Source: Vicinamibacterales bacterium
GTDB lineage: Bacteria; Acidobacteriota; Vicinamibacteria; Vicinamibacterales; UBA8438
Length of the DNA stretch: 64,000 nt
Reading direction: 5' to 3'
NCBI GenBank assembly: GCA_958296065.1
Contig: CATQHX010000010.1
Location: forward strand, 186,001 to 250,000
Position 1 is the first letter of the stretch, and each line of letters opens with the position of its first letter. The translations under genes and the position numbers were made by a program. The notes beneath the pieces are model-generated. The model saw nothing but the letters and a program-made list of their open reading frames with translations. It searched no databases and had not been told where the DNA came from. Below, piece after piece: positions 3,199-36,016 of the stretch.

Positions 3199-3202
3199 CT
3201 AG

Positions 3203-3342
3203 AATCCTTGACTGGCCGGCATCTTTACAGATGAGTCAAGTTCAGGTTTTGGTCGCTCTATCTTCTCCCTATTCCAATTCTCAGCGTGCCGGTTGCGGAG
3301 CAAACTCAACCTACATGCTTGTGGGTCTGAGGCGGAGCCTCG
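3203..3342 (-). mobile_element. 140-bp miniature CTAG element, inverted orientation
   Basis: This 140-bp unit lies between CTAG at 3199-3202 and 3343-3346. It is near identical, in reverse orientation, to the three copies at 11.8-12.4 kb. It meets the larger element head to head, sharing one CTAG, which creates a perfect 30-bp palindrome at 3186-3215 (arm CCAGTCAAGGATTCT). Its far CTAG supplies the stop codon of the RecQ-type gene. It has no coding capacity of its own; short ORFs across it are chance. Confidence 0.8.
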
Positions 3343-4977
3343 CTAGTAGGTTCCAAATCTCGCCTTCAGCACATCTGTTGGGTCCGTGCTCGTCTCGACA
3401 AGTGTCACAAACTCCCGAAATGACTCCAACTTGCCCTCAACTCGCGCATTGACCTCGTTCGCAATCTGTCGCATTTCCTCATCGCAAGCGTCCCGAGTGC
3501 GAAAAAACAATGTCTTGTCGGCTGCACGAACGAGCTTGATTTCGTCTCGATGAAGCAGGTCGAATATCTGCTCGACCGTCTTGCTAGGATCGATTCCAAG
3601 TTTGCGCATAGCGGCTGCCGTCGTCCTGTTCCTGGTTGCGGAATTGAGACGCTCGAGATATGCCATGCCCTCTGGCCTGCGGGCCTCAAGACACTGCAAG
3701 CGTCCCGGACCGCGGGCCAGCACATCGATAGCACCAATCCTCTGGAAGGCGTAAAACAGCGCATATTCGTCATCCTGACCTTGAAACTCAGTCCACGGAC
3801 TAATGGTCCTCAGCTCGCTTCGACCGACATTGCAAACCTGATTCCACACCTCACGCACCTGATCTACACTACGCCGCCCCTTCCCTATCATGTCTCGGCG
3901 CACCTTGCTGTTCACGGCTGTATACAGGAGCACACCAAATGCCGGATCGCCGTCGCGACCGGCCCGTCCCACTTCTTGATAGTACTGCTCGAGCGATTCG
4001 GGAAGCAGAAAATGGACCACGCCTCGAATGTCCGGGATGTCGATACCCATGCCAAAGGCCCCTGTAGCAAACACAATCTTGATATCGCCGGCCTCGAAAC
4101 GCTCCAGAGTGCCGTTCTTGACCTCCGGCCGCAGGTCGGCATCGAACGGCGCACATTGGTGGCCGAGTAGAGCAAATCGGTCTGCCAGCGCCCGTGTTCC
4201 TTGCGTCTTGCTCAGCTTTCTGTGTGCATAGACAACTAGCTTCTCGCCCCGATGCTTCTCGAGTAGTTCTTCTAACGCTGCGAGCTTCCCATTAGCATCA
4301 TCATAGATTTCGAAGCGGAGATCGAGATTCGTGCGGAGCATGTTCGTACTCCGAACGACAGCGCTCTTTGTCAGTCGAAAATCTCTGAGAATCTCCCTTT
4401 GGCTGTTCACATCAAGAGTAGCCGTGAGGCAAATGACAACTGGCCAGGAATCTCGCCCGAAGCAACGATCCAGAAAACCCGGGAGATTCTTGTACGGAGG
4501 ACGAAAGTCGTGGCCCCATTGCGAAATGCAATGTGACTCGTCGATCGCCACCAGCGTGACGTATTTCTGGTACCGGTTGACAAGAAACTCCAGATATCCA
4601 TCTGTCTCTGCACGCTCTGGCGAAACGAACAGAAAGCCGGTTCCATCCGCCCAAGCAAACGACTTGAGAGCCCGTTGAGCTTCGGAAGCGTCGGCGCCTC
4701 CGAGTGACAGTGCGTTAGCGCCCATCTGGCGGAGAGTTCCCGCTTGTTGCTGCATCAGCGCGATCAACGGCGAAATGATGATCGCAACGCCTTCCGAAGC
4801 GAACACGGGCAACTGATAGACCAAGGACTTGCCCATGCCAGTAGGCATGAGGACGAGCGATGATCGACCCGCCCAAATGCGATCAATCGCCTGCTCCTGG
4901 CAGTCCCGAAAACGCGGAACCTCCGGAAAAAAGGTCCTTAGGGCCTCGGTCTTCGTCCTGCTGAAATTCATCGTCAT
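3343..4977 (-). CDS. RecQ-type ATP-dependent DNA helicase
   Basis: This 544-aa superfamily 2 helicase has a Walker A (PTGMGKS, near residue 48), a DESH box (AIDESHCISQWGHDFRP), motif III (CLTAT), and the helicase C-terminal domain ending in FATGAFGMGIDIPDIR and QEVGRAGRDGDP. The RecQ zinc-binding cysteines and an HRDC domain are not obvious, so it is a divergent RecQ-like protein rather than housekeeping RecQ. Its ATG overlaps the stop of the upstream gene by ATGA, so the two are translationally coupled. The stop codon TAG lies in the CTAG joining it to a 140-bp mobile unit, so the original C-terminus may have been shortened. Unwinding of DNA in a phage-defence or repair pair is a plausible role. 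Confidence 0.85.
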   Translation of the reverse strand: MTMNFSRTKTEALRTFFPEVPRFRDCQEQAIDRIWAGRSSLVLMPTGMGKSLVYQLPVFASEGVAIIISPLIALMQQQAGTLRQMGANALSLGGADASEAQRALKSFAWADGTGFLFVSPERAETDGYLEFLVNRYQKYVTLVAIDESHCISQWGHDFRPPYKNLPGFLDRCFGRDSWPVVICLTATLDVNSQREILRDFRLTKSAVVRSTNMLRTNLDLRFEIYDDANGKLAALEELLEKHRGEKLVVYAHRKLSKTQGTRALADRFALLGHQCAPFDADLRPEVKNGTLERFEAGDIKIVFATGAFGMGIDIPDIRGVVHFLLPESLEQYYQEVGRAGRDGDPAFGVLLYTAVNSKVRRDMIGKGRRSVDQVREVWNQVCNVGRSELRTISPWTEFQGQDDEYALFYAFQRIGAIDVLARGPGRLQCLEARRPEGMAYLERLNSATRNRTTAAAMRKLGIDPSKTVEQIFDLLHRDEIKLVRAADKTLFFRTRDACDEEMRQIANEVNARVEGKLESFREFVTLVETSTDPTDVLKARFGTY

Positions 4978-11770: not shown

Positions 11771-11795
11771 CCGGTTCCATCCAGCTTCTTCCTAG

Positions 11796-11935
11796 CGAGG
11801 CTCCGCCTCAGACCCACAAGCATGTAGGTTGAGTTTGCTCCGCAACCGGCACGCTGAGAATTGGAATAGGGAGAAGATAGAGCGACCAAAACCTGAACTT
11901 GACTCATCTGTAAAGATGCCGGCCAGTCAAGGATT
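11796..11935 (+). repeat. 140-bp miniature CTAG element, copy A
   Basis: Unit of 140 bp between CTAG at 11792-11795 and 11936-11939. Left-end hairpin GAGGC-TCC-GCCTC and right-end nested hairpin (CTTGACT/AGTCAAG around CATCT/AGATG) are intact. It is essentially identical to copies B and C. Confidence 0.9.
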
Positions 11936-11939
11936 CTAG

Positions 11940-12077: not shown

Positions 12078-12081
12078 CTAG

Positions 12082-12221
12082 CGAGGCTCCGCCTCAGACC
12101 CACAAGCATGTAGGTTGAGTTTGCTCCGCAACCGGCACGCTGAGAATTGGAATAGGGAGAAGATAGAGCGACCAAAACCTGAACTTGACTCATCTGTAAA
12201 GATGCCGGCCAGTCAAGGATT
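12082..12221 (+). repeat. 140-bp miniature CTAG element, copy B
   Basis: Second array copy, between CTAG at 12078-12081 and 12222-12225, with the same ends as copy A. It shares its right CTAG with copy C. Confidence 0.9.
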
Positions 12222-12225
12222 CTAG

Positions 12226-12365
12226 CGAGGCTCCGCCTCAGACCCACAAGCATGTAGGTTGAGTTTGCTCCGCAACCGGCACGCTGAGAATTGGAATAGG
12301 GAGAAGATAGAGCGACCAAAACCTGAACTTGACTCATCTGTAAAGATGCCGGCCAGTCAAGGATT
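12226..12365 (+). repeat. 140-bp miniature CTAG element, copy C
   Basis: Third array copy, directly abutting copy B with a 144-bp period, ending at CTAG 12366-12369. Immediately afterwards comes a CRISPR-repeat-like sequence. Confidence 0.9.
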
Positions 12366-12368
12366 CTA

Positions 12369-12395
12369 GGGTTCATCCCTGCCTGCTCGGGGTGC
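12369..12395. other. Orphan CRISPR-repeat-like sequence (degenerate)
   Basis: GGGTTCATCCCTGCCTGC followed by TCGGGGTGC resembles the type I-E repeat consensus with mismatches in the stem. No second repeat or spacer-sized interval follows, so it is not an array. Confidence 0.35.
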
Positions 12396-19056: not shown

Positions 19057-20745
<1,689 letters not shown>

Positions 20746-20802: not shown

Positions 20803-21567
20803 ATGTTCGGCGCGAACGAGCTGCACCACCGTCTCGCCTCGTGGGCCGTGTCTGCGGCTTGCGCGATCGGCTTCATCGGCATGATGAGCCTGCTCCTGAC
20901 GGACGGCCGAGTCGCCGCCTTCCTGCTCGACCGCAACTCGACGGTCTTCGACTACCCCTTCACCATCCAGAACCTGATGTGGCTGATCTTCTTCGGGGCG
21001 CTGGCCGAGGTCGCCGTGCGCCACCGGCGCGCTCGTGTCGAGTCGCTACAGCTCGACGAGGGCCTGCTGCCCGAGGACGACGAGACGATGCTGCGGCTGC
21101 GGGACCTCGGCGCGATTCGCACTCGCGTCCGGGGGCAGGAGGACTTCTTCCTGCAACGACTCATCTCGCGCTGCATCCTGCAGTTCCAGAGCGCGCAGTC
21201 TACCGACCGCGCCAACGCGCTGCTGAACTCGTCGCTTGACCTAATGCAGCACGAGGTGGACACGAAGTACAGTCTGCTCCGCTATCTGGTGTGGGTGATT
21301 CCGACCGTCGGCTTCATCGGCACCGTGGTCGGCATCGCTGCGGCGTTGGACCAGGCGGGGGCCGCCGACGACTTCCAGGACCCGGCGCTGCTGGGCGAGC
21401 TCACGCGCAGCCTGGGGGTGGCCTTCTACACGACGATGCTGGCTCTGGTGCAGTCGGCGTTGCTGGTGCTGGCGCAGAACGTCACGCAGGCCAGCGAGGA
21501 AAGCGCGTTGAACCGGGCGGGCCAGTACTGCCTCGACAACCTGATCAACCGGCTCTACGAGAAGTGA
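20803..21567 (+). CDS. MotA/TolQ/ExbB-family proton-channel-like protein
   Basis: The 254-aa protein has a first membrane helix pair (about 13-35 and 48-70) and the signature C-terminal part: LVWVIPTVGFIGTVVGIAAA at about 165-185, then SLGVAFYTTMLALVQSALLV at about 205-225. That is the conserved core of MotA/TolQ/ExbB stators that couple proton flow to work. A dedicated MotB/TolR/ExbD gene is not adjacent, though the vWA protein at 27251 begins with a single TolR-like membrane anchor that could be its partner. It sits 11 bases before an FHA gene, so expression is surely shared with the signalling genes. Confidence 0.85.
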   Translation: MFGANELHHRLASWAVSAACAIGFIGMMSLLLTDGRVAAFLLDRNSTVFDYPFTIQNLMWLIFFGALAEVAVRHRRARVESLQLDEGLLPEDDETMLRLRDLGAIRTRVRGQEDFFLQRLISRCILQFQSAQSTDRANALLNSSLDLMQHEVDTKYSLLRYLVWVIPTVGFIGTVVGIAAALDQAGAADDFQDPALLGELTRSLGVAFYTTMLALVQSALLVLAQNVTQASEESALNRAGQYCLDNLINRLYEK

Positions 21568-21578
21568 AAGGCGTGGCG

Positions 21579-22223
21579 ATGCCCGTGTATCGAACCCCGG
21601 ACGGTCGGATCGTCGAGGAGAGGACCACCGTGAAGCCGCCGGGTGCCGGCCGCGACCGGAAGGCTAAGGACGCAGGGTCCGGCCGTGACGAGCCGCCCGC
21701 GCGTCCCGAGGGTGGCGGCGCTGCGCCGGAGACAGGACGCCGGCGCGCGGCATACACCCACCCGACGGTCGTCCGGCGACCCGGTGGGACGACCGGCAGA
21801 CAGGCGGCCCGCGACGACCAGCGCACACGGCTCGCCGGAGCCGTTCCTGCTGATGCGGCCGGCGCGGAGGAGACCGATCCGGTGGCGGGCTGGCTCGTGA
21901 TCGTCGAAGGGCCGGGCGCGGGACGGGACCTGCGGATCGGCGTGGGCCGCAACGATCTCGGTCGGGACGGCGACAACCGCATTGCGCTGCCCTTCGGCGA
22001 TACGCGGATATCGCGCCGGAAGCATCTGTGGGTCAACTACGATCCCCTGAACCGGGCATTCTCCGTCGCCCCGGGCAACAGCACGAACCTGGCGTACCTG
22101 AACGACGCTGCGATCGAGGAAGGGATGCCGCTCGCCGACGGTGCCACGATCACCGTCGGTCGGACGATATTGCGCTTTGTGGCGTTCTGCGGCGAAGGTT
22201 TCGCATGGCCCGATGCCGACTGA
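21579..22223 (+). CDS. FHA-domain protein
   Basis: The 214-aa product starts at ATG 21579. Residues 1-100 are a disordered, Arg/Pro/Gly-rich linker. Residues about 105-205 form a forkhead-associated domain, with IGVGRNDLGRDGDNRIALPF, the ISRRKHLWV stretch (Ser-Arg-Arg-x-His), GNSTNLAYLND and LADGATITVGRTILRF. FHA domains bind phosphothreonine, so it is a likely reader of the neighbouring kinases. The expected Asn of the NGT motif is NST here, placed as usual. It overlaps the start of the phosphatase gene by 11 bases. Confidence 0.85.
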   Translation: MPVYRTPDGRIVEERTTVKPPGAGRDRKAKDAGSGRDEPPARPEGGGAAPETGRRRAAYTHPTVVRRPGGTTGRQAARDDQRTRLAGAVPADAAGAEETDPVAGWLVIVEGPGAGRDLRIGVGRNDLGRDGDNRIALPFGDTRISRRKHLWVNYDPLNRAFSVAPGNSTNLAYLNDAAIEEGMPLADGATITVGRTILRFVAFCGEGFAWPDAD

Positions 22224-23256
22224 CTTCCTGCCGCTCGATATCGGCTCCGCGGCGCGCGCCTTGGTACTGGTCATCGCCGCCGCAATCAGTCTGTTGGCGC
22301 TGTCCATTCTGGCGCAGATCCCCGCGGTGGTTCTGATGTGGTGGCTGCGGCCGCAACCGGCGTACAACAGGCCGGAGGCGCCAGCCGGCGGCGGGTCTGC
22401 GATGTCGAGGGCCGCGCCGACGGACGCCGCCCGTATGCGCCTGCGCCGCGGCGGCGGGCAACTCGTAGGCAAACGCGAGATCCAGGAAGACGAGCTCGGC
22501 TTCATCGACGGCCCGACCCTCGATCCCGGCGGCCAGCATCCGGTAGTGGTCGTGGCGGACGGTATGGGCGGACATGCAAGCGGCGAGTTGGCGAGCCGGC
22601 TCGCGGTGCGCGCGTTCGTCGAGGCGTACGGCACGGAAGGCCGGCCGGCGGATCGGCTGCGGGCGGCGCTCGACCGCTCCAACCAGGCGATAGACGACGC
22701 GATACGGGACAACCTGTCGCACGACGGCATGGGCACCACGCTGGTGGCGGCGGCGGTCACGGCGGACGGCCTCGAATGGATCAGCGTCGGAGACTCCCCG
22801 CTGTACCTCTGCCGCGACGGTCGGCTGAAGCGCCTGAACGAGGATCACTCGATGGCCCCGGTGATAGCGGCCATGCGCGAGATCGATCCGGCGACGGCCA
22901 GGAGCATGAACCCGAACGAACTCCGCTCGGCGCTTGTCGGTTTCGCGCTCACCAAGGTGGACGCCTCGCCGATGCCGGAACTGCTGAAACCGGGCGACCT
23001 GATCCTGCTGGCGAGCGACGGCCTGAACACGCTGGACGAAGGTGAGATGGCCTCGCTCATCGCCACACGCCGCGGCGATGGGCCGGAGGCGGTGAAGGAC
23101 GCTCTGCTCGCGGCGGTCGCGGCGCAGGACGTGCCGGCGCAGGACAACGTGACGGTGGCGCTGATCGAGGCGCCTGGCGCGACGGGAGCGCCCGGCGCGT
23201 CGGGGTGCGCCCGGTGCGACGGGACCGCCGGAGTGCCGGTAGCATCGGGAGTCTGA
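22213..23256 (+). CDS. PP2C-family Ser/Thr phosphatase, membrane-anchored
   Basis: From ATG 22213 the 347-aa product starts with a membrane helix (about 15-45, LVLVIAAAISLLALSILAQI). The PP2C catalytic domain (about 75-320) shows the metal-binding VVVADGMGGHASGELASRLA, GMGTTLVAAAVTADG, SVGDSPLYLCRDGRL, LILLASDGLNTLDEGEM and DNVTVALIE motifs. The N-terminal metal residue motif is in NQEDE-like form KREIQEDELG. It should dephosphorylate the kinases' targets and switch the pathway off. A Gly/Ala/Pro-rich tail of about 20 residues ends it. It is 8 bases from the next FHA gene. Confidence 0.9.
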   Translation: MPTDFLPLDIGSAARALVLVIAAAISLLALSILAQIPAVVLMWWLRPQPAYNRPEAPAGGGSAMSRAAPTDAARMRLRRGGGQLVGKREIQEDELGFIDGPTLDPGGQHPVVVVADGMGGHASGELASRLAVRAFVEAYGTEGRPADRLRAALDRSNQAIDDAIRDNLSHDGMGTTLVAAAVTADGLEWISVGDSPLYLCRDGRLKRLNEDHSMAPVIAAMREIDPATARSMNPNELRSALVGFALTKVDASPMPELLKPGDLILLASDGLNTLDEGEMASLIATRRGDGPEAVKDALLAAVAAQDVPAQDNVTVALIEAPGATGAPGASGCARCDGTAGVPVASGV

Positions 23257-23263
23257 GGAGCGG

Positions 23264-24232
23264 ATGTCGAACGTAACGCGGTCGATTTCGGCCCGCCGCA
23301 TTGCCCGCATCGTCGTCGCGGCATGCATCGTTCTCGGCGTCGCGTGGGACGCCGTCCCGGCCCAGCCCGGTGCATCGACGGTCGACGAAGACATGGTGCG
23401 CGCCGTCGCCACTGCTGCCGAGATTGCAGCACAGCGGGACACGGAGGCGCGCGAGGCGCAGGCGGCGGCGAACGCGGCGTTGGAGGAAGCCGCCGAGGCG
23501 CAGGCGCGGGCCGATGCCGCCCTGGACCGTGCCCAGGCCCTGGAGGCGCAAGCGAACGCCACACAAGCCGAGCGGGACGCGGCGCGTGCGGAAGCCGAGA
23601 CCCTGCGGGCAGAAGCCGCGGAGAAGGAAGCCGCCCGGGTCGCCCTGGAGCAGCGAGCTGATACCGCCCTGGAGCAGGCGCGGGAGGCCCAGGCGCGGGC
23701 GGCGACTCTCGAGCGACAGTTGGTGCAGGAGCAACGGCATTTCTACTTGGCGCTCGTCGCCGCATCCCTGGCGCTGCTGGCGGTGATCCTGGTCGCGTGG
23801 CGCTTCGCGAGCCGCCGCCGCCTCGAGTTGGCGGCATCGGAGGCGGCGCGCCGGGCCAGTGAGGAACAGCTTGCCGCCGCGGTCACCGCTGCGCCGTTCT
23901 CCTGCCTGCTGGAGGGGACCGACACGAACGGTCGCAGCGTCGTGGTCAAGATCGGCGCCGAGCAGCTCGGGTCGCGCGACGGAATCGTAGTCGGCCGCAA
24001 CCCGGCTCAGGCGGGCGTGGTCCTCGACCACCCGGAGGCGTCGCGCGAGCATTTCCGGCTGGCCGCAACGGGCCGGAGCATCTCCATCGTGGATCTGCAT
24101 TCCACGAACGGCACCTTCGTGAACGGAACCGAGATCGAGCCCGACAAGGCGACCGTGCTCTCCTCTGGAGACGAGATCCGCGTCGGGGCCGCGATACGCC
24201 TGACCGTGTCGATCGACCGGGTCGCGCCGTGA
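23264..24232 (+). CDS. Coiled-coil membrane protein with C-terminal FHA domain
   Basis: The 322-aa protein starts behind TGAGGAG. It has a signal-type N-terminal hydrophobic stretch (ARIVVAACIVLGVAWDAV), an Ala/Glu/Arg-rich coiled coil (about 45-155), a membrane helix (about 163-185, FYLALVAASLALLAVILVAW), and an FHA domain (about 220-318) with IVVGRNPAQAG, EASREHFRLA and STNGTFVNG. Topology would place the coiled coil in the periplasm and the FHA domain in the cytoplasm, so it could pass an envelope signal to the kinase/phosphatase pair. It overlaps the start of a decayed vWA gene by GTGA. Confidence 0.85.
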   Translation: MSNVTRSISARRIARIVVAACIVLGVAWDAVPAQPGASTVDEDMVRAVATAAEIAAQRDTEAREAQAAANAALEEAAEAQARADAALDRAQALEAQANATQAERDAARAEAETLRAEAAEKEAARVALEQRADTALEQAREAQARAATLERQLVQEQRHFYLALVAASLALLAVILVAWRFASRRRLELAASEAARRASEEQLAAAVTAAPFSCLLEGTDTNGRSVVVKIGAEQLGSRDGIVVGRNPAQAGVVLDHPEASREHFRLAATGRSISIVDLHSTNGTFVNGTEIEPDKATVLSSGDEIRVGAAIRLTVSIDRVAP

Positions 24233-24783
24233 AGCCAACCCGCCGGGAGATCAGCATCCTTCAGCGTGTCGGCGATCGATCTGACCGAGGACGCGGCCGT
24301 CGGCGTCATCGATTTCAAGGACGGATGTGGCCGGCAGCCGGCCTTGCGCATCGCACCGATCCAGCGCATCGACCGGCAGTCGGTGCGGCGGCTGGCGGCG
24401 TTCGCGCGGTCGATGCGCCCCGGCTCGGCGGCCTGGAACGTAACGGTGGACGAGGACTACGCCGAGGCCTTGCGGGCGGCCGTCAACGCAGACTGGCGGC
24501 AGGGCAGTGAGCACCGCTCGATCGTCATGATCTCCGACAACCCGGCGCACGCCAACGCGCGGCAGCAAGCCATCGCTGACGTCGGCGCTTCGCGGGCCGC
24601 CCTAGCGCCCGGCACACTGTCTCGGCGGTCTTTGTCGACACGAGCTTGACCGCCGGTTCCGGCTACCCGGACGCGGCAGCGTTCATTCGCCGCGTGGCCG
24701 GGCCGGCGGCGGCCACTTTGTCCGCGCGGATGAGAACGCGTCGCTGTCGGCGACGATCCCTGCGGGCCATCTTCGAGGACTGA
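24229..24783 (+). pseudogene. Decayed vWA-domain gene with internal deletion
   Basis: It begins like the intact vWA gene at 27251 (GTG, KPTRRE) but has an extra C that shifts frame, then jumps from SAID-L directly to TEDAAVGVIDFKDGCG, losing about 515 bases that encode the membrane anchor, coiled coil and the metal-ion DxSxS site. The deletion endpoints share the short sequence CGAYCTG in the paralogue. Further frame changes appear near 24585, before the ending that still resembles RADENASLS. The gene is dead, and its place just behind the FHA gene suggests the vWA module was once the end of this operon. Confidence 0.8.
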
Positions 24784-24976
24784 TTCGCCTAACTGCCCCG
24801 AAAATGAACGACCCTCCCCGCGGTCCACACATCGCAGCGCTCGTCCCGGCCCCGACCCCTCCGCCGAGCGCAGGCCCGTTGCCAGTTTCCGCCGATGGAT
24901 GGCGCGGTTGGAGGTGGAGTGATAGCGATGTGGCTAGATGGCGCGGTTGAAGGTCGAGTTGTAGAATCGGGACGCC

Positions 24977-27175
24977 GTGACAGCGCATCAACATCCGGCC
25001 GCGCTGCCGAAGGGCCACCGCATCGGCGAGTACGAGATCGTCCGCGTGCTCGGCGCGGGTGGCTTCGGCATCACGTACCTGGCGTTCGACCACCAGTTGG
25101 ACGGACCGGTCGCGCTCAAAGAGTACTTTCCCGCCGAGGCGGCAAGGCGCGAGTTCGGATGGGGCGTCGCCCCGTCAAGCACGGGGAGCAAAGCGCTCTT
25201 CACCTGGGGCCTCGACCGTTTCATCGACGAGGCTCGGTCCCTCCATCGCCTTCGACACGCGAACGTCGTGCGGGCGCATCGCTACGTCCAGGCCTACGGC
25301 ACCGCGTACATCGTCATGGAGTACGTCGAGGGCGAGTCCCTGCAGCAGATCCTCCGGGTGCGCGACCGGCTGACGCCCGACGCTTGGCGGCGATTGCTGG
25401 ACCCGTTGATCGACGGGCTGGCCCACGTGCACGGCCACGGCTACCTGCACCGCGACATCAAGCCCGCGAACATCATGATTCGCGCCGCGGACGGGGCTCC
25501 GGTGCTGATCGACTTCGGCGCCGCGCGTGTGGCCGCCCGGGGCCGGACGCACACTCAGGTGCTGACGCCGGAGTACGCCCCGCTGGAGCAATATTCGCGC
25601 GAGGGAACGCAGGGACCGCCCACCGACATCTACGCCCTGGCCGCGGTCTCGTACCGCGTGCTGACCGGCGAGCGGCTGTCGAGCGCCCCGGACCGGGTGC
25701 TTGACGACGATTACGAGCCCCTGGCGAACCGCATCGCCGGCGCGAACCACCGGTGGCTGGCCGCCATCGACCATGGACTGGCGTTGCGGCCGGAGGACCG
25801 GCCCCAGACGGTCCCGGTATGGACTGCGGCGATGCGCGGCGCCCGCACCGCGCCCGTACCGAACGTCGATGCCGGGACCGACCGCAGCAGGAACGCCGCG
25901 CGGGCCTCCGCACCTCTGCAGGACGCTCCGGCCGCATCCGGCCGCTCCTCTCTGTCGTTGAGGCACTGGGGGTGGGTCCCGGTCTTAGTCATTCTTTTTT
26001 TCCTCGACGCCATCACGAGTGACCCGCCGGATCGAAATCCTGCCAGCGTCTCGGGCGAGAATGACCCAAGCGCGGACCGGCCGCAACGACCCGGTGCATC
26101 CGAGCCCCCGACGCGAGCGACCGCGCAAGCTCCGACGAGCAGAAGTACGCCGAGATCGCTTCCGGTCTCATCACCGGAAGCCGGCGAAGCCAGACTGGGG
26201 CTCGATCGGTCAGCCAGGCGGCTGATCCAGCGAGGGCTGCGCGCCGACGGATTTGATCCTGGCTCCGTCGACGGGTTGTTCGGACCGGCGACACGCGCGT
26301 CGCTGCGGGCGTGGCAGAGCTCCCGCGGGCAGGCGGCAACTGGCTATCTGAACGGCCAGCAGGTGGCGGAACTCCGGGATTCTGCACGTCGCCAGCAGCA
26401 GCGATCCGCCGCATCGACACCCGCAAACCGATCGACCGCACCAACTCCGACAGACGGAAGTACCTCGAACCCATCGCCCTTGATCTCAGCACCTGAGGGA
26501 TGGCCACCGGCACCCAGCCCCAAGGTAGCAAACGGAAGGTCGTTCACGCGCGGTTCACATCAGGATGACGTCCTCCGCCTGCAGGGCACGCCGACCAGCA
26601 TCAACCGGTACCCATCCCTGGGGCACGAAACATGGCGCTACGGATCCAGTTCCGTGACCATCTCGACCCGATCACGCCACGTCATCGAGTGGGCGAATCG
26701 CGGTGGCAACCTCAAGGTGCAACTGGCGCCGGGCCGTAACGGGACGAACGCGACATCGTTCACGCGCGGTTCACATCAGGATGACGTCCTCCGCCTGCAG
26801 GGCACGCCGACCAGCATCAACCGGTACCCATCCCTGGGGCACGAAACATGGCGCTACGGATCCAGTTCCGTGACCATCTCGACCCGATCACGCCACGTCA
26901 TCGAGTGGGCGAATCGCGGTGGCAACCTCAAGGTGCAACTGGCGCCGGGCCGTAACGGGACGAACGCGACATCGTTCACGCGCGGTTCACATCAGGATGA
27001 CGTCCTCCGCCTGCAGGGCACGCCGACCAGCATCAACCGGTACCCATCCCTGGGGCACGAAACATGGCGCTACGGATCCAGTTCCGTGACCATCTCGACC
27101 CGATCACGCCACGTCATCGAGTGGGCGAATCGCGGTGGCAACCTCAAGGTGCGACAGGCGCCCGCCGGTCGATGA
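24977..27175 (+). CDS. Transmembrane Ser/Thr kinase with peptidoglycan-binding-like domain and triplicated repeat
   Basis: This 732-aa protein (GTG start) has a kinase domain (about 16-290; GAGGFG, VALKEYF, HRDIKPAN, IDFGAARV, GPPTDIYALAAVSYRVLTG) with all catalytic residues. A membrane helix (about 333-350, WVPVLVILFFLDAI) is followed by a Pro/Ser/Thr-rich linker and a peptidoglycan-binding-like segment (about 410-465, RRLIQRGLRADGFDPGSVDG). Residues 522-732 are three copies of a 72-aa unit (SFTRGSHQDDVLRLQGTPTS, WRYGSSSVTIS) that resembles the small BamE/SmpA-like repeats of other extracytoplasmic proteins. It is a plausible envelope sensor. Its vWA neighbour follows 75 bases later. Confidence 0.88.
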   Translation: MTAHQHPAALPKGHRIGEYEIVRVLGAGGFGITYLAFDHQLDGPVALKEYFPAEAARREFGWGVAPSSTGSKALFTWGLDRFIDEARSLHRLRHANVVRAHRYVQAYGTAYIVMEYVEGESLQQILRVRDRLTPDAWRRLLDPLIDGLAHVHGHGYLHRDIKPANIMIRAADGAPVLIDFGAARVAARGRTHTQVLTPEYAPLEQYSREGTQGPPTDIYALAAVSYRVLTGERLSSAPDRVLDDDYEPLANRIAGANHRWLAAIDHGLALRPEDRPQTVPVWTAAMRGARTAPVPNVDAGTDRSRNAARASAPLQDAPAASGRSSLSLRHWGWVPVLVILFFLDAITSDPPDRNPASVSGENDPSADRPQRPGASEPPTRATAQAPTSRSTPRSLPVSSPEAGEARLGLDRSARRLIQRGLRADGFDPGSVDGLFGPATRASLRAWQSSRGQAATGYLNGQQVAELRDSARRQQQRSAASTPANRSTAPTPTDGSTSNPSPLISAPEGWPPAPSPKVANGRSFTRGSHQDDVLRLQGTPTSINRYPSLGHETWRYGSSSVTISTRSRHVIEWANRGGNLKVQLAPGRNGTNATSFTRGSHQDDVLRLQGTPTSINRYPSLGHETWRYGSSSVTISTRSRHVIEWANRGGNLKVQLAPGRNGTNATSFTRGSHQDDVLRLQGTPTSINRYPSLGHETWRYGSSSVTISTRSRHVIEWANRGGNLKVRQAPAGR
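26540..27152 (+). repeat. Three tandem 216-bp repeats inside the kinase gene
   Basis: Units begin at 26540, 26756 and 26972 with a 216-bp (72-codon) period and appear identical in DNA as well as protein. The third unit diverges only at its end (AAGGTGC then CGACAGGCG). Identity at silent sites implies recent amplification. Confidence 0.95.
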
Positions 27176-27250: not shown

Positions 27251-28318
27251 GTGAAGCCGACCCGCCGGGAGGCCAGCATCTTCAGCGTGTCGGCGATCGA
27301 CCTGTTCGCGTCGGCGCTCGGGGCCTTCATCGTCGTCGCGTTAGTGCTGCTGCCCTACTTCCCCAACACCGGCGACGCCCCTCCGGCCGGCGCGGACCCG
27401 CCGGTCGACCCGTCGTCCTCGCTTGGCATCTCGCCCGCCGAAGTCGAGGCGCTACGCGCCCAGGCGGCGCGGGCCGAGGCCGCCCTGGCCGAGGCGGAGC
27501 GGCGCGGGCGCGATCTGTCGGAGGCGCTGGAAGCGGCCCGAGCGCAGGCGTCGGCGCCCGCACCGACGCTGGCGAACCCCATCTCGCCCGCCGAGGTGGC
27601 AGCGCTCCAGGACCGGGTAGTGCGTTCGGACGCGGAGCTGCAGGCGGCGCGCGCCCGCGAGCGCGAACTCGCGCGGGCGCTCGACGCCGCGAAGTCGTCG
27701 GTCCGGACGCTACCGCCGATTGATCTCGTAATCGCCCTCGACACGACCGCGAGCATGACAGGCGAGGTGGCGAGCCTGCGCGAGGAAATCGCGGGCCTTT
27801 CCGCCCTCCTCGCCGACCTGACCGACGACGCGGCGGTGGGCATCATCGACTTCAAGGACGGCTGCGGGGGGGCGCCGGCCCTGCGCATCGCCCCGCTCCA
27901 GCGCATCGACCGGGAGTCCGTGCGCCGGCTGGCCGTCTTCACCCGTTCGATGCGTCCCGGTTCGCCGCGCTGCAACACGACTTCCGACGAGGACTTCGCC
28001 GAGGCGTTGCGCGCGGCCGTCGACGCCGACTGGCGCCCCGACAGCGAGCTCCGGTCGATCGTCCTGATCTCCGACAACCCGGCCCACGCCTATTCCCGGG
28101 AGCAAGCCGTGGCCGACGCCCGGCGCTTCTCGCGTGGCCCCGGCGCCCGGCACACCGTCTCGGCCGTGCTCGTCGACACGAGCGCCTTCGCCCCGACCTA
28201 CCCCGATACCGCGGCGTTCATGCAGCGCGTCGCCCAGGCGGGGGGCGGGCAGTTCGTCCGCGCCGACGAGAACGCGTCGCTGTCGGTGACGATTCTGCGC
28301 GCCGTCTTCGACGGCTGA
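27251..28318 (+). CDS. Membrane-anchored von Willebrand A-domain protein
   Basis: The 355-aa product (GTG start) has one N-terminal membrane anchor (about 17-38, FASALGAFIVVALVLLPYF), like the TolR/ExbD layout, then a Pro-rich linker and a coiled coil (about 60-150), and a vWA domain (about 158-350). The metal-ion site reads DTTASM (DxTxS), with GIIDFKDGC and LISDNPAHAYSREQA beyond. It should bind a protein partner through the metal site. The position after a membrane kinase, and an anchor resembling those that pair with ExbB-like channels, hint that it works with the channel protein of the cluster. It stops 34 bases before the convergent operon's end. Confidence 0.85.
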   Translation: MKPTRREASIFSVSAIDLFASALGAFIVVALVLLPYFPNTGDAPPAGADPPVDPSSSLGISPAEVEALRAQAARAEAALAEAERRGRDLSEALEAARAQASAPAPTLANPISPAEVAALQDRVVRSDAELQAARARERELARALDAAKSSVRTLPPIDLVIALDTTASMTGEVASLREEIAGLSALLADLTDDAAVGIIDFKDGCGGAPALRIAPLQRIDRESVRRLAVFTRSMRPGSPRCNTTSDEDFAEALRAAVDADWRPDSELRSIVLISDNPAHAYSREQAVADARRFSRGPGARHTVSAVLVDTSAFAPTYPDTAAFMQRVAQAGGGQFVRADENASLSVTILRAVFDG

Positions 28319-29843: not shown

Positions 29844-30966
29844 TCCGGGGCCGCTCGCACTCCACGTGGTGTAAAAGCCGATCCGGAATGTCCCGCACGT
29901 ACGGGTGCAACTCCCTTCCGTGGTACGACAGGAACAGGTTCCGCCGACTCCGCGTCAGGCCCACGAACAACAACCGCCGGGCGATGGCCTCGTCGTCCTT
30001 CCAGAAGGTCCGCCGCCCGGTCAGCCCCGGCAGGAACACCGTTTCGAAGTCCAGCCCCTTCGCGCTGTGGTAGGTCATCACATACGAGATCGAGCGACGA
30101 TCCGATTCATCGAGACTGCCGTGTCCGCTCCCCAGATACTGCAGCGGAACCCCGTCGCGCTGCAGGGCCTCGTTCACGGCGTCGTAGTCCTTCCCCTGGA
30201 ATCGAGGCTCCGGCGCGCCCGTCAGGCGGCACACCGCCCGCAGGAAGCGACGGATGTCCTTGCGCGTCGAGAACAGCGCGGCCGCCGGCTTTCCCACGCG
30301 GCTGTATCTGCTCAGCCTTTCCCACAACCACTCGGTCTCCCGCTCCGCGGTCTCCGCGTGCGCCAGCGTGACCTCGACCTCCTGCATGCGCGCCGTCGTC
30401 GCACCTTCGAGCCGGGACCCCGGCACGACGCAGCACGCGATGTCCCTGATCCTCTGCGTGAGGCGGTAGAGGGTCTCCAGCGAGACGATGTCCGGGTCGA
30501 GGAGGTCGAGACAGTCCCGAATCTCGCTCTCGGTGCTGCACTTGTCGTAAATCGACTGGTCGGTGTCACCGGCCGCCACGACGCGGCCGGCCAGCGCCCG
30601 GATTCGGCGCAGGTCGGCGGCCGGAATGTCCTGCACCTCGTCGAGCAGGATCCAGTCGTACCTTCGACCTTCATGCAAGAGTTGGTAGTAGGTCATGACG
30701 GGTGTGCGCCCGGCGAGATGCCGGCCCAGACCGCTCGCTATCAGGTCCTTCAGCGCATGCGTGTAGGTGGCGAGACAGATGCTCGCCTCGTCGTGCTCCG
30801 CCAGGATGCGTTCGGCCAGATGCACGAGCAGCACCGTCTTCCCGGTGCCCGCGAAGCCGCGAATCCAGTGGTTGCGCCGGTGGCGGGGGTCGACGACGGC
30901 GCCGCAACGCCGCAGCACATCCAGTTGCTGCTCACCCATCTTCCGTTCCGGCGGCTTCCAGTTCAT
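29800..30966 (-). CDS. Short superfamily 1 (UvrD-like) helicase/ATPase
   Basis: At 388 aa it is far shorter than UvrD or Rep. Recognisable motifs: RGFAGTGKTVLLVHLA (Walker A), WILLDEVQDIP (Walker B), VVAAGDTDQSIYD (III), TYHSAKGLDFETVFLPG (V) and RRLLFVGLTRSRRNLFLSYH (VI). The accessory 1B/2B insertions are largely missing. Its ATG overlaps the stop of the kinase-Hsp70 gene by ATGA and it overlaps the next gene too, so the three products are made together. Conflict or stress-response systems often carry such stripped SF1 ATPases. Whether it unwinds DNA or RNA is unknown. Confidence 0.85.
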   Translation of the reverse strand: MNWKPPERKMGEQQLDVLRRCGAVVDPRHRRNHWIRGFAGTGKTVLLVHLAERILAEHDEASICLATYTHALKDLIASGLGRHLAGRTPVMTYYQLLHEGRRYDWILLDEVQDIPAADLRRIRALAGRVVAAGDTDQSIYDKCSTESEIRDCLDLLDPDIVSLETLYRLTQRIRDIACCVVPGSRLEGATTARMQEVEVTLAHAETAERETEWLWERLSRYSRVGKPAAALFSTRKDIRRFLRAVCRLTGAPEPRFQGKDYDAVNEALQRDGVPLQYLGSGHGSLDESDRRSISYVMTYHSAKGLDFETVFLPGLTGRRTFWKDDEAIARRLLFVGLTRSRRNLFLSYHGRELHPYVRDIPDRLLHHVECERPRSGDSGEAPQQELFL

Positions 30967-33900
30967 CGTTCGATCTGTTCGGCGCCGGCCGTATTTCGGC
31001 TATGGATGAGCCCGCGGTTGGGACTCGCGGCCAGGACCTCCGGGCGGACCGGGTCGTCGTCAATCCGCCACCGCTTTCGATACTCGCGAACGTGCTCGAG
31101 AGTCCGTCGTTTGCCGAGCGTCCTCGCGTTCTGCTCTAGCAAGGCGCAATCGTCTTCCGTCAGGCTCTCCTTTGCGAGTTCCTCCTCCAGGATGTCGAAG
31201 GCTCGCGTTACGCACTCCAGCCCGCGGGGATCACCGTCGTCGCGCAGGGCATGGCCGTGAACCGTCAGGGCAGGGACGAAGTCCGGATCCAGCCGGAGCG
31301 ACCCCTCCATCAGACGTGCGCAGGCTTCCATGTCGCCGCGTCGCCGCTCGTCGATTGCGCAGTTGTAGGCGGTCACGCAGCTCGGCGCCCGCTGATGCGC
31401 CTTGAGCGACCACTCGCGGGAACGTCGGTAGTCCCCGGATCGCGCGTAGCTGTAGGTAATGCTGACGGCGTGGTCGCTGTCCGGATCCAGCCGTTCCGCC
31501 GCCTCGTACATCTCCGCCGCCTCCCGCCATCGGTGGGCCTTCTGGGCAGCACGCGCGAATGTCAGCACCGCCGCTGTAGCGGGACGACCCTTCCCGGCGA
31601 GAATCGAGGCGTTCAGCGCCTGTCTCGCCTGGAGCAGACGCCGCCCGCCGGGCAACAGCTCGGCGTTCGCCAGCGGATTCAGGATCTCCGAGGCGACGGC
31701 GGCGCCCCCGGCGTGGACCCTGACGACGAGGAGCTTGTCCCGGGAGATGTGGGACGAAATGCGGATGGTCTCCCCCTTCTCGAACCAGCCGGGGGGCGAC
31801 GGCGGCGGGACCGTCAGCACCGCCAGTATCTTGTCGCGTCCGCCGACGCAGAACGGCAGCTCCACGCGGGTCTGCCGTTCCTTCCCCACCGTCACCGACG
31901 TGATGGCGGTCGGCGACGGGACCGGAGAGCCGGCGTCGATCACCATTTCCTGCGTGATGGTGGCTGAGGACGGGACATCAGAGCCGGCGTCGATCACCCC
32001 TTCCTGATTGTCGTCCCGCGTCAGAACGTAGATGGGCTCGCTCGTGATCGGACGGACGATATCGTGCCCGAGCCCGTGGAGATACAGGGAGTGTATGGCG
32101 GCGCCCTGCGAGACGTGAGCACGAAGGTCGCAAGGCGTCACGCACTCGACGAAGCGGCCCATGTGCCTCTCGATCGCGCCGCGTACGAGGGAATTCGCGC
32201 TGCTGCCGCCGATGAACAGCACCATGTCGAGGTCGTCAGGCGTCAGCCCCGCCTTCTCCAGGGCGCTCGAAACGGGCTCCAGGACGCTCGGCGTGCGGTC
32301 CAGGCGGTCCTCGCCGGGCGACGCCGGGGCGGCGAGAAACGGCTCCATGATCTCCGCGAACTCGCCGAGGGTGATCTGCGGCTCGTCGAGGGTCCAAGAC
32401 CTGCCCCGCACCTCGATAACGTCGATGCCATCGGCCACGATCGGATCCGTGCACTCACGGAGGTCGGACGGATCGCCGGCGCCCCGCGCCTCGGCCTGTT
32501 TCGAGCACTGGATCTTCAGCTCCTCGGCGGCGTGCTTCAGACGGGGCAGCAGCAGCTTGTCTCGTTCGTTAGACGAGATGACCTCGTCCGGGTCGCCGTC
32601 GCCACGGAGCTGGGGCAGGAGAATACGCTTGGCGATGGCCCGATCGATGTCGTCGCCTCCGAGGGCGAGGAACTTCGAGATCGCCAGATTCCTGGAGGAG
32701 AGCCGCCCGTCCGCGATGCTGACCTCCAGCACCGAGATGTCGCACGTGCCGGCGCCGAAGTCGAAGACGAGCACGCGGCCCGCCTTCCGCGCGAGGAGCG
32801 CCGACACGGATGGACCCTCGGCGCCGCGCTCCATGTCGAACACGTAGCTGAGAAACGCCGCGTTGGGCTCGTCGATGAGACCGGTGTCCTCGACGGGGAT
32901 GCCGGCGCCGGCGAGCGCCCGCACGAGGTCGCGGCGCTGGTTGGCCTCGAACGCGGCGGGAACGCTGACCGCGTACACCGGCGGGGGCAGCGAATGATCC
33001 AGGACGTGCCGGTCCACGGCCTCACGCAGGTGATGCAGGAAGACCCTGGCGGCGTCCTGCGGCCGTTCGACCACCACCGGCGCGCGCCCCTCGGCGAGCA
33101 CCGTGTTGGGATACTGGGGGCCGAGGTCGACCCCGAGTTCCATCTTGAAGGACGACCAGAGATCCACTCCCTCCCGCAACGTCGCCCTCAGGTGCGGCGT
33201 CACGCCGCGGCCCACGAGCAGACGGCCGTTGCGCCAGGCGAGACAGCTCGGCACGAGATGGTCGTCGTGGCGTCTGTCTTCCTCGTCGAGCTGGGGAACG
33301 GAAAGCGGTTCGGCCCTGGGGACGCGACCTCCATCGTCCATCCGGACGATGCTGACCACCGTCGTCGACGTCCCGAAGTCCATGCCCACGAAGGTCTGCC
33401 GGGCCAGGTTCCCGCGGAGGGCCTCTGCGTCGCCGGCCAGATTCGTCACGGAAACACCCGCCGCCTCGTCGGGCGCGCGGTCGGGGCCGTCCGCGCCCGC
33501 CATGGCCGATCGCCACGCCGACACGGTCCGGGGCCGGTCGTCGGGCCGCAGCGCCATTCCCCGGTCAATCGCCGCGAGCCACCGAAGATCCGCCCCCGCG
33601 ACCCGCTCCGCAAGCGACTCGTACCGGTCGTCCACGGCCCGTACCGGCGCTTCCGGCGCGCACTCGCCGGTCAGCGCGCGGTACGAGACCGCCGCCAGCG
33701 CGTAGATGTCGGTGGGCGGCCCCTGCGCGCCCTCGGTCCCGTGCTGCTCGATGGGCGCATACCGCGGCGTCAGCACCTGGGTGTGCGCCCGGCCGCGCGC
33801 CGCCGCGCGCGCGGCCCCGAAGTCGATGAACACCGGCTCGCCGTTCGCCGCGCGAATCACGATGTTCGCGGGGGTAATGTCGCGGTGCACGTAGCCGTGT

Positions 33901-34358
33901 CCGTGCACATGCTCCAGCCCGTTGAGCAGCCGGTCCAGCCATTGCCGCCACTCGGCGACCGGCAACGGCGCGCGGATTCGCAGGACGGCGTCCAGCGACT
34001 CGCCCTCGACGTACTCCATCACGATGCAGGCCGTGCCGAGCGCCTCGACGTAGCGATGCACCCGCACCACGTTCGGATGCCGGAACCGATGGATCGACCG
34101 CGCCTCGTCCAGGAAACGGTCGAGACCCCAGGTGAAGAGCGCACGGCTCTCCTCCGCTGGCAACGCGGCCACGCGCTGGTCCGCGGTCCGCTCAGCGTGT
34201 TCGTGCGGAAAGTATTCCTTGAGCGCGACCGGTCCGTCTAGTCTCGTATCGTTCGCGAGATAGGTGATGCCGAAGCCGCCGGCGCCCAGCACGCGGACTA
34301 TCTCGTACTCCTCGATCCGGTAGCCCGGCGGCAGGGCGCGGGCGCACGTCTCGGGCAC
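30963..34358 (-). CDS. Ser/Thr kinase-Hsp70-TPR fusion protein
   Basis: The 1131-aa product (GTG 34358) joins three parts. Residues 15-290 are a Hanks-type kinase of the same subfamily as the two plus-strand kinases (GAGGFG, Lys47, DFG 179-181), but its catalytic loop reads HRDITPAN, with Thr162 where Lys is usual. Residues about 322-830 are an Hsp70-type actin-fold ATPase: VGMDFGTSTTVVSI (phosphate 1), VFDFGAGTCDISVLEV (phosphate 2), VLFIGGSSANSLVRGAI (adenosine). A short substrate-domain-like part and TPR-type helices (about 930-1070, ARAAQKAHRWREAAEMYEAA, DPDSDHAVSITYSYARSGDY) follow. It begins the operon with the small helicase. Activity could be reduced by the Thr162 change, though such HRDxxP variants exist in active bacterial kinases. 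Confidence 0.88.
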   Translation of the reverse strand: MPETCARALPPGYRIEEYEIVRVLGAGGFGITYLANDTRLDGPVALKEYFPHEHAERTADQRVAALPAEESRALFTWGLDRFLDEARSIHRFRHPNVVRVHRYVEALGTACIVMEYVEGESLDAVLRIRAPLPVAEWRQWLDRLLNGLEHVHGHGYVHRDITPANIVIRAANGEPVFIDFGAARAAARGRAHTQVLTPRYAPIEQHGTEGAQGPPTDIYALAAVSYRALTGECAPEAPVRAVDDRYESLAERVAGADLRWLAAIDRGMALRPDDRPRTVSAWRSAMAGADGPDRAPDEAAGVSVTNLAGDAEALRGNLARQTFVGMDFGTSTTVVSIVRMDDGGRVPRAEPLSVPQLDEEDRRHDDHLVPSCLAWRNGRLLVGRGVTPHLRATLREGVDLWSSFKMELGVDLGPQYPNTVLAEGRAPVVVERPQDAARVFLHHLREAVDRHVLDHSLPPPVYAVSVPAAFEANQRRDLVRALAGAGIPVEDTGLIDEPNAAFLSYVFDMERGAEGPSVSALLARKAGRVLVFDFGAGTCDISVLEVSIADGRLSSRNLAISKFLALGGDDIDRAIAKRILLPQLRGDGDPDEVISSNERDKLLLPRLKHAAEELKIQCSKQAEARGAGDPSDLRECTDPIVADGIDVIEVRGRSWTLDEPQITLGEFAEIMEPFLAAPASPGEDRLDRTPSVLEPVSSALEKAGLTPDDLDMVLFIGGSSANSLVRGAIERHMGRFVECVTPCDLRAHVSQGAAIHSLYLHGLGHDIVRPITSEPIYVLTRDDNQEGVIDAGSDVPSSATITQEMVIDAGSPVPSPTAITSVTVGKERQTRVELPFCVGGRDKILAVLTVPPPSPPGWFEKGETIRISSHISRDKLLVVRVHAGGAAVASEILNPLANAELLPGGRRLLQARQALNASILAGKGRPATAAVLTFARAAQKAHRWREAAEMYEAAERLDPDSDHAVSITYSYARSGDYRRSREWSLKAHQRAPSCVTAYNCAIDERRRGDMEACARLMEGSLRLDPDFVPALTVHGHALRDDGDPRGLECVTRAFDILEEELAKESLTEDDCALLEQNARTLGKRRTLEHVREYRKRWRIDDDPVRPEVLAASPNRGLIHSRNTAGAEQIER

Positions 34359-34919
34359 GACCTCGATCCTACTACGCGCGCCCGCCGGGCTGTTTCGGAC
34401 TCCGCCGCCGACTTCAATCAACCCAAATGTCTGCGATACCGACGAGAACGCGTCGCTCGGCGAATGGCGCCGACGCATGCCGCGCCGACGATGGGGCGGA
34501 CGCAGCGCCAGGTGTGGCAGGCTGCGTCTGCTCGGCGGCGCGCATCTGTTCAACCGGCGTTCTCGGACGAGAGCGTACGCCTGGACGTGCGGACGACTCT
34601 GCCGGTCACGGCGGCGCGTCTGCTCGACCGCATCTCCATCGGCGTTCCGGTGATCCGCGGCCCGGTGAGTTGCGATCTCAGGGGCGGTTCACCCGGCGCA
34701 ACGTTCTGCGAAGACTGCGGTAAGACGATGCGGCCCGGTGAGTTGCGATCTCAGGGGCGGTTCACCCCCCTGAATCGAGAACTGGGGCCATCGAACGGCC
34801 CGAACTGGGGTCATGGCATCGAAGTGCACCAGGGCCATGCTTTTCGGCCGATCAGGGCCATTGCATTGCACGGTGACCAGCGTGACCGCCGAAACGGCCT
34901 TCCCGCAGGGAAAAATACT
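34359..34919. other. Gene-free stretch with a direct repeat
   Basis: No gene is visible. A near-identical 36-bp segment (GCGGCCCGGTGAGTTGCGAT and following CTCAGGGGCGGTTCACCC) occurs at about 34658-34694 and 34729-34766. A short open piece between them (ATFCEDCGKTM) looks like a zinc-ribbon relic. At about 34785-34860 ACTGGGGYCAT motifs recur, similar to IS21-type end repeats. The promoter for the kinase-Hsp70 operon should lie near 34359-34450 but I cannot point to it. Confidence 0.5.
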
Positions 34920-35202: not shown

Positions 35203-35622
35203 ATGAGGAAAGCGACGGTGACGGTTCGTCTCTCGGCGGGCCTGGTGGAACGGCTCGACAAGCTCGCTGTCGGGCTCGGCACGTTCGGCCTGAGTCGGCC
35301 GCGGGTCATAGAGGCTCTGGTTCAAGGCTGCCCTACCGGTGCAGATGCTCTGGAGAGGATGCTGCGGCATGCTGCGGGCGTCGACAAGCCGACGCGGCTA
35401 CCGGTGGATGCGGTCAAGCTGCAGGCGGAGTACGAACGCGGGCTCGAGGCCGGGCGCGCCGAGTCTGGGCCAGCGCACGCACTGGCGGACCGGGCGTGGC
35501 GTCTGCTGGTAACGGACCACCCCGACTTTGACGCGGCGTTCCACTGCCGTGCGTGGCTGGCTGATCACGATATCGAAGTCATCCACGACGAGGCCGACGG
35601 GCAGTTGAAGTTGCGGGAGTAA
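35203..35622 (+). CDS. Ribbon-helix-helix protein
   Basis: The 139-aa product starts at ATG 35203. Residues 1-45 (ATVTVRLSAGLVERLDKLAV, then SRPRVIEALVQ) fit a ribbon-helix-helix DNA-binding domain of the CopG/MetJ type, so it probably dimerises and binds DNA. The remainder is helical (about 60-135, AEYERGLEAGRAESGPAHAL, HDIEVIHDEADGQLKLRE) and unknown. RHH proteins often serve as antitoxins or plasmid regulators, but no toxin gene is adjacent. The gene's final codons lie inside the first unit of a 204-bp tandem duplication. Confidence 0.7.
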   Translation: MRKATVTVRLSAGLVERLDKLAVGLGTFGLSRPRVIEALVQGCPTGADALERMLRHAAGVDKPTRLPVDAVKLQAEYERGLEAGRAESGPAHALADRAWRLLVTDHPDFDAAFHCRAWLADHDIEVIHDEADGQLKLRE

Positions 35623-36016
35623 CGCCGCGCGTGGGGGTGTGGCGCGGCGCCAGCGTTCGCGTTATCGGGTCGGCCGTCAGGTCGAGTGCTGCGAGCACGA
35701 AATCGCCGCTCCGGCACTGAGAGGCGCACTTCTCGGTGCCGTGCACCATTAGACGCCGGATTCCGGCCTTTTGTTCCCGGGTGGCCGATCTCTTTCGGGG
35801 GGGCGCGTTTGAAGTTGCGGGAGCAACGCCGCGCGTGGGGGTGTGGCGCGGCGCCAGCGTTCGCGTTATCGGGTCGGCCGTCAGGTCGAGTGCTGCGAGC
35901 ACGGAAATCGCCGCTCCGGCACTGAGAGGCGCACTTCTCGGTGCCGTGCACCATTAGACGCCGGATTCCGGCCTTTTGTTCCCGGGTGGCCGATCTCTTT
36001 CGGGGGGGCGCGTTTG
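35605..36016 (+). repeat. 204-bp tandem duplication behind the RHH gene
   Basis: TTGAAGTTGCGGGAG begins at 35605 and again at 35809. Over about 204 bases the two units differ at only a few positions, including one inserted G after GAGCAC and a T-to-C change that removes the RHH stop in the second copy (GGGAGTAA versus GGGAGCAA). The units contain no recognisable gene. A second-copy RHH tail is thus present but not connected. Confidence 0.9.

Follow-up and report, generated by a model that had tools for sequence, protein, structure and literature searches.

The window analysed here is a stretch of 64,000 nucleotides from a Vicinamibacterales bacterium (contig CATQHX010000010.1, positions 186,001 to 250,000), and all coordinates are counted from its first letter. 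On its forward strand, the open reading frame (ORF) at 24977–27175 encodes a 732-amino-acid Hanks-type Ser/Thr kinase that comprises, in order, a kinase domain, one predicted transmembrane (TM) helix, a PG_binding_1 domain and a C-terminal array of tandem repeats. The features of the locus are:

24977–27175, forward strand: Hanks-type Ser/Thr kinase gene, 732 aa (ORF; Pkinase PF00069, E 5e-35)
25031–25684, forward strand: kinase catalytic domain, aa 19–236 (Pfam PF00069)
25949–26005, forward strand: single predicted TM helix, aa 325–343 (Kyte-Doolittle mean 1.51 over 19 residues, moderate)
26210–26368, forward strand: PG_binding_1 domain, aa 412–464 (Pfam PF01471, E 9.7e-11, over the cut-off)
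26540–26755, forward strand: repeat unit 1, 72 aa (TRF and direct comparison)
26756–26971, forward strand: repeat unit 2, the same as unit 1 at 216/216 bp (direct comparison)
26972–27172, forward strand: repeat unit 3, first 181 bp the same, then its own tail, with the stop codon at 27173–27175 (direct comparison)
27251–28318, forward strand: vWA-like protein with an N-terminal hydrophobic segment (PF13519, E 1.2e-5, just below the cut-off)

The catalytic domain scores 121.6 bits against PF00069 (cut-off 31.7), which identifies the protein as a Hanks-type kinase. TM helices were called by a simple hydropathy scan rather than a trained predictor, and the single peak found between the kinase domain and the repeats (aa 325–343) is only moderately hydrophobic at 1.51. 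The original prediction of a membrane kinase with a peptidoglycan-binding-like domain therefore agrees with the Pfam assignments of Pkinase and PG_binding_1 and with the predicted helix. PADLOC matches of the kinase, which fall mainly in the catalytic part with several reaching about aa 300–390, are expected for any Hanks kinase and were set aside.

TRF reported the array at 26540–27162 with a period of 216 bp, 2.9 copies and 99% matches; 216 bp corresponds to 72 codons, and the period is in frame with the ORF. As the array contains an exact self-match of 397 bp at offset 216, its repetition is not due to chance. The original prediction had placed three identical 216-bp repeats at 26540–27152. 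These coordinates are correct, 27152 being the end of identity in unit 3, but units 1 and 2 alone are identical over the full 216 bp; unit 3 matches both of them exactly through its first 181 bp. As a control, we sampled 20 kb from each of 20 other contigs of this genome (400 kb in total), which contained one exact tandem match of at least 60 bp, with a 107-bp period, and zero Ns. The window is likewise free of Ns and has two more tandem duplications, at 12078 and 35605, the latter (35605–36016) being a duplication of 205 bp with 99% identity by TRF.

Each unit represents one copy of a module of ~60–72 residues with the motif F-T-x-G-S-x-x-D-D-V-x-x-x-x-G-T-P ... W-x-Y-G ... V ... V-x-x-W-x-N ... 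L-K-V, and successive modules are joined by the linker P-G-x-N-x-T-x-A. Positions G16 and W32 are present in 33 of 33 aligned units, and F2, G5, S6, V11, P18, Y34, V39, V48, W51 and L58 are nearly invariant. No Pfam family reached its cut-off on the array, BamE being the nearest. Searches of PDB sequences with the unit and three profiles gave weak matches (best E 0.0049), the best of which, to the mitochondrial ribosomal protein mL74, was confined to a local stretch and was not accepted as homology. Against PHROGs the array reached E 1.4e-5 with a family of unknown function, no single stretch passing alone, and neither a scan of viral_contigs nor tblastn against phages returned a relative. No description of the module was recognised in literature searches that were judged by titles and the starts of abstracts and were not aimed at the motif.

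The only near-identical kinase match in another genome was in the sister genome G001 (92%; weaker matches were found in G002 and G003), where unit 1 is followed by the beginning of unit 2 and, past a gap, by the closing part of the last unit. Within the genus, two of four genomes (G000 and G001 only) contain the module when matches with E of 0.01 or less are counted, and the window unit matches 3 of 60 nearer relatives, its own genome counted. A narrower profile found the module in 4 of 396 Acidobacteriota genomes and broader profiles in at least 6 of 396 (own genome counted), the latter a lower bound given that the phylum surveys scored the best 14–15 candidates per genome. Weak matches within the window's own genome (L004–L007, E 0.17–2.4; 4 of 7 rows) were set aside as chance.

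Two kinases of the Holophagales MAG SB0665_bin_19 (G213; name inferred) carry the module. Kinase 1 has at least 3 units, which share 91–97% DNA identity among themselves over at least 59 codons and about 70% with the window; a count of at least 4 was lowered because the fragments flanking a gap of 10 Ns overlap by 55 identical bases. Kinase 2 combines Sel1 repeats with 5 diverged units. The 72-aa period is common to the sister and Holophagales genomes. Elsewhere, kinases with 5 units and with 14 diverged units are encoded by G381 and by the one-contig genome G229, respectively, and the gene just upstream of the 14-unit kinase (L044:1144–3015) encodes another member of this kinase group, with a fused FGE-sulfatase (formylglycine-generating enzyme-like) domain. 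A plasmid protein of Paenibacillus peoriae has 3 units. Single units end a J-domain-like membrane protein in G299 (L049:1672–2451; J domain read from the translated sequence) and a J-domain membrane protein in G021 (L009:3–1085, reverse strand; J domain confirmed by Pfam) that is cut by the contig end, and one unit occurs in a multi-TM protein at a contig end in G300. Searched against plasmids, the G299 unit gave no matches.

The comparison with related genomes that had been proposed as a check thus revealed tandem copies whose number and sequence differ between genes and genomes, and the predicted variability of repeat number held at that level, with 1, 3, 5 and 14 copies. The core residues of the module are kept from Acidobacteriota to Paenibacillus. 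Because it is found in tandem in the sister and in distant Acidobacteriota kinases as well as in the Paenibacillus plasmid protein, and singly on a J-domain protein, sequence comparison indicates that this is a real portable module and not an invention of the assembly. Its single occurrence on the J-domain membrane protein of G299 argues that one unit would fold alone.

The window encodes three kinase paralogues, at 19057–20745, 24977–27175 and 30963–34553 (reverse strand), whose catalytic DNA is about 76% identical and whose C-termini are unrelated; the last is fused to Hsp70 and TPR. Around them are genes for a MotA/TolQ/ExbB-like protein, PP2C, an FHA protein and the vWA-like protein, which adjoins the kinase in the sister species too. 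Translated sequences show similar neighbours beside other module-carrying kinases, with a trypsin-FHA protein confirmed by Pfam in G213. This arrangement suggests that the cluster serves membrane signalling and that its kinases exchange C-terminal modules. The Hsp70-kinase fusion of the window cluster may be set beside the J-domain proteins ending in the module in G299 and G021.

Several further irregularities were observed in this region. A run of (ACG)19 at 20273–20330 is translated as poly-aspartate in the neighbouring kinase (19057–20745). Upstream of the repeat-bearing kinase, 24229–24785 holds a broken partial vWA-like copy (510 bp, 79% identity), the intact copy being the one downstream at 27251–28318. 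Window positions 3189 and 24809 adjoin in the sister genome (L050 10333/10335), such that about 21.6 kb (3190–24808) is either extra in the window genome or lost in the sister. Part of this segment, 20867–24258, is only 74–81% identical to its match, a cluster at another place on the sister contig, versus 90–94% for the flanks. A 148-bp element is present in four identical copies (3199–3346 on the reverse strand, 11792–11939, 12078–12225 and 12222–12369), one of which lies at the margin of the extra segment. When the element was examined for terminal inverted repeats, none was clear, and its outer ~38 bp also occur alone elsewhere in the genome.

We then asked how old the array is. The non-repeat part of the kinase differs by 5.4% between window and sister, with a dS of 0.107, and unit 1 of the window differs from unit 1 of the sister with a dS of 0.119. 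Within the window, dS is 0 for unit 1 versus unit 2 and 0.02 for unit 1 versus unit 3. The reported identity at silent positions is therefore confirmed for units 1 and 2, whereas the remainder of the gene has a dS of 0.107 relative to the sister species. A divergence of 5.4% predicts about 9.8 differences per 181 bp, and there are 0 between any two window units. In the sister, unit 1 versus its own unit 2 gives a dS of 0.206 over 30 codons, above the between-species value. Across the 90 bp covered in both sister units, 79 sites are the same in all three sequences, at 3 sites both sister copies are alike and the window units different, and at 8 sites the sister copies differ from each other, the window unit agreeing with copy 1 at 3 and with copy 2 at 5. 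At 4 further sites, a base common to the sister's unit 1 and its last fragment is unlike all window units. The window units thus appear as a patchwork of the two differing sister copies.

Since two or more copies that differ from each other are already present in the sister MAG, the array would be older than the species split, and the simplest account is that it predates the split and was homogenised separately in each lineage. Concerted evolution of the array is well supported, though by few sites; 30 codons, next to a scaffold gap, are available for the second sister copy, and a chimeric assembly at that point would weaken the case. The recent amplification originally proposed gives way to an old array, with recency retained for its homogenisation. 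Gene conversion or unequal crossing-over between copies could have made the old array uniform repeatedly, and would also permit changes in copy number.

The position of the array relative to the membrane differs among the module-carrying kinases. In three of them (the window kinase, the sister kinase and kinase 1 of the Holophagales MAG) a TM helix comes before it, and there the array is predicted to lie outside the inner membrane. The remaining 3 of the 6 kinases compared (G213 kinase 2, G229 and G381) have no TM helix before the array: none was found at all in Holophagales kinase 2 and G229, and the only one in G381 comes after it. In these three the array is predicted to be inside the cell. 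The suggestion that the units form an extracytoplasmic sensor part fits the window protein, with its predicted helix and PG_binding_1 domain, but does not generalise to the half of the kinases without a preceding helix; the module thus appears to be a general interaction module and not a dedicated outside sensor.

For the window protein, we propose that a receptor-type Ser/Thr kinase ends, on the outside, in three copies of a single module that is autonomous and probably rich in beta structure. Located beyond the inner membrane and next to a peptidoglycan-binding domain, the array would most likely serve as a multivalent binding or spacing arm. Such an arm might set the position or the clustering strength of the kinase, and copy number would in turn tune signalling. 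An old, homogenised module array acting as a binding or spacer arm on a receptor kinase is, taken as a whole, the explanation towards which we lean, by a modest degree.

That the assembler made the copies from one unit is very improbable in our judgement, although the copies are perfectly identical. Two related MAGs do break within the array, at 100 Ns in the sister and at 10 Ns in the Holophagales MAG, where the 55-bp exact overlap on both sides looks like the product of a k-mer join; such breaks are expected when short reads, the presumed read type of both MAGs, meet near-identical units. Against this origin, the window unit is in frame with its own linker and the last copy has a distinct tail, the 72-aa period recurs in the sister and Holophagales genomes, the one-contig genome has 14 diverged units that are unlikely to be miscounted, and the 400 kb taken from elsewhere in the window genome is free of Ns. 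The artefact that the original prediction had allowed for is consequently unlikely as the source of the array, homologous arrays existing elsewhere, and survives as a caution about number: arrays of the module appear to be real, and the count of three in the window is as assembled. If the copies are real, they could still be a neutral by-product of recombination, with copy number having no effect on the kinase. The wide spread of copy number between genes (3, 5, 14), with no rule visible, accords with this, and the retention of core residues from Acidobacteriota to Paenibacillus speaks against it for the module, though not directly for copy number; we regard neutrality as unlikely.

A single-unit model built from 9 sequences is an antiparallel beta meander (pLDDT 77), and the best VIA-align matches, weakly blade-like, are largely propeller-like proteins, as might be expected if the units were blades of a beta-propeller closed by dimerisation (3 + 3) or, for 14 units, as 2 x 7. 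PknD of Mycobacterium tuberculosis offers a precedent, as a receptor kinase with an outer part of repeated beta motifs acting as a sensor (PMC6213207). Yet those VIA-align scores are at most Z 5.1, a range the tool calls common, Foldseek gave a best E of 0.31 with none at 0.001 or better, and the three-unit model (pLDDT 61, pTM 0.32), of low confidence, repeats the same strands per unit without a reliable inter-unit arrangement or a confident closed shape. Unlike PknD, the window module has no significant sequence or fold match and also occurs singly, as in the J-domain protein, making a propeller improbable. Classing the unit as a short BamE/SmpA superfamily member (PF04355) is somewhat more likely, though still doubtful, the resemblance being weak and lying in the G-T-P and W-x-Y part. 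Pfam E-values are 7.4e-4 on the window kinase and 9.1e-5 on the Paenibacillus protein, and hhalign pairs G-x-x-x-x-x-V-x-x-x-x-G-T-P ... W-x-Y in the same order. Both proteins nevertheless miss the BamE gathering cut-off of 23.2 bits (19.7 and 22.6, respectively), 2 of 11 diverse units match alone, and the hhalign result (P 0.019, probability 2.5%) covers 30 columns of a BamE profile of just 5 sequences. The model moreover has, with modest confidence, a strand and not a helix at D-V-L-R-L, and in contrast to BamE/SmpA the module is carried by kinases and J-domain proteins, in many cases as tandem copies. No BamE chain appears among the Foldseek or VIA-align matches listed for the single-unit model, which at pLDDT 77 gives little ground for comparing folds. 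A relation to BamE would therefore rest on sub-threshold scores and a short motif.

The binding or spacing arm that we favour has its closest parallel in the PASTA receptor kinases (PknB, PrkC, StkP), which likewise combine a Hanks-type kinase, one TM helix and a variable number of tandem repeats outside, and which serve here as an analogy for the role of the array (PMC6213207; PMC6428115). The outer domain of PknB is described as binding lipid II and directing the location of the kinase (PMC6428115). PASTA is, however, not among the 9 Pfam families found on the window kinase at E up to 1, and NF033483 scores 120.7 bits against a cut-off of 450, with its best stretch in the kinase domain. Unlike PASTA kinases, the window kinase has near-identical copies of a repeat that is not PASTA and whose module is also found without a preceding TM helix. 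The array is thus most likely PASTA-like in use and not in family. Intragenic tandem repeats of Legionella pneumophila are described as similarly in frame within genes and variable in number between strains (PMC2639597); the window module differs in being conserved, in having distant homologues and in its homogenisation relative to a sister species. A receptor kinase with outer tandem repeats is accordingly a known kind, and it is the module for which the libraries searched gave no named family above cut-off.

Both related MAGs with close copies (2/2) break inside the array, and arrays of this type may be under-counted for this reason. Together with a sister that has differing copies, the homogenised array provides a natural case for studying whether a bacterial receptor kinase is tuned by the number of its repeats. 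A broader and more speculative reading, which we offer tentatively, is that an unnamed portable module found from Acidobacteriota to Paenibacillus might provide signalling proteins with an adjustable arm for binding, whether inside or outside the membrane, with recombination continually resetting both copy number and sequence. If this is true, receptor kinases would have a built-in means of adjusting their avidity far more quickly than point mutation allows.
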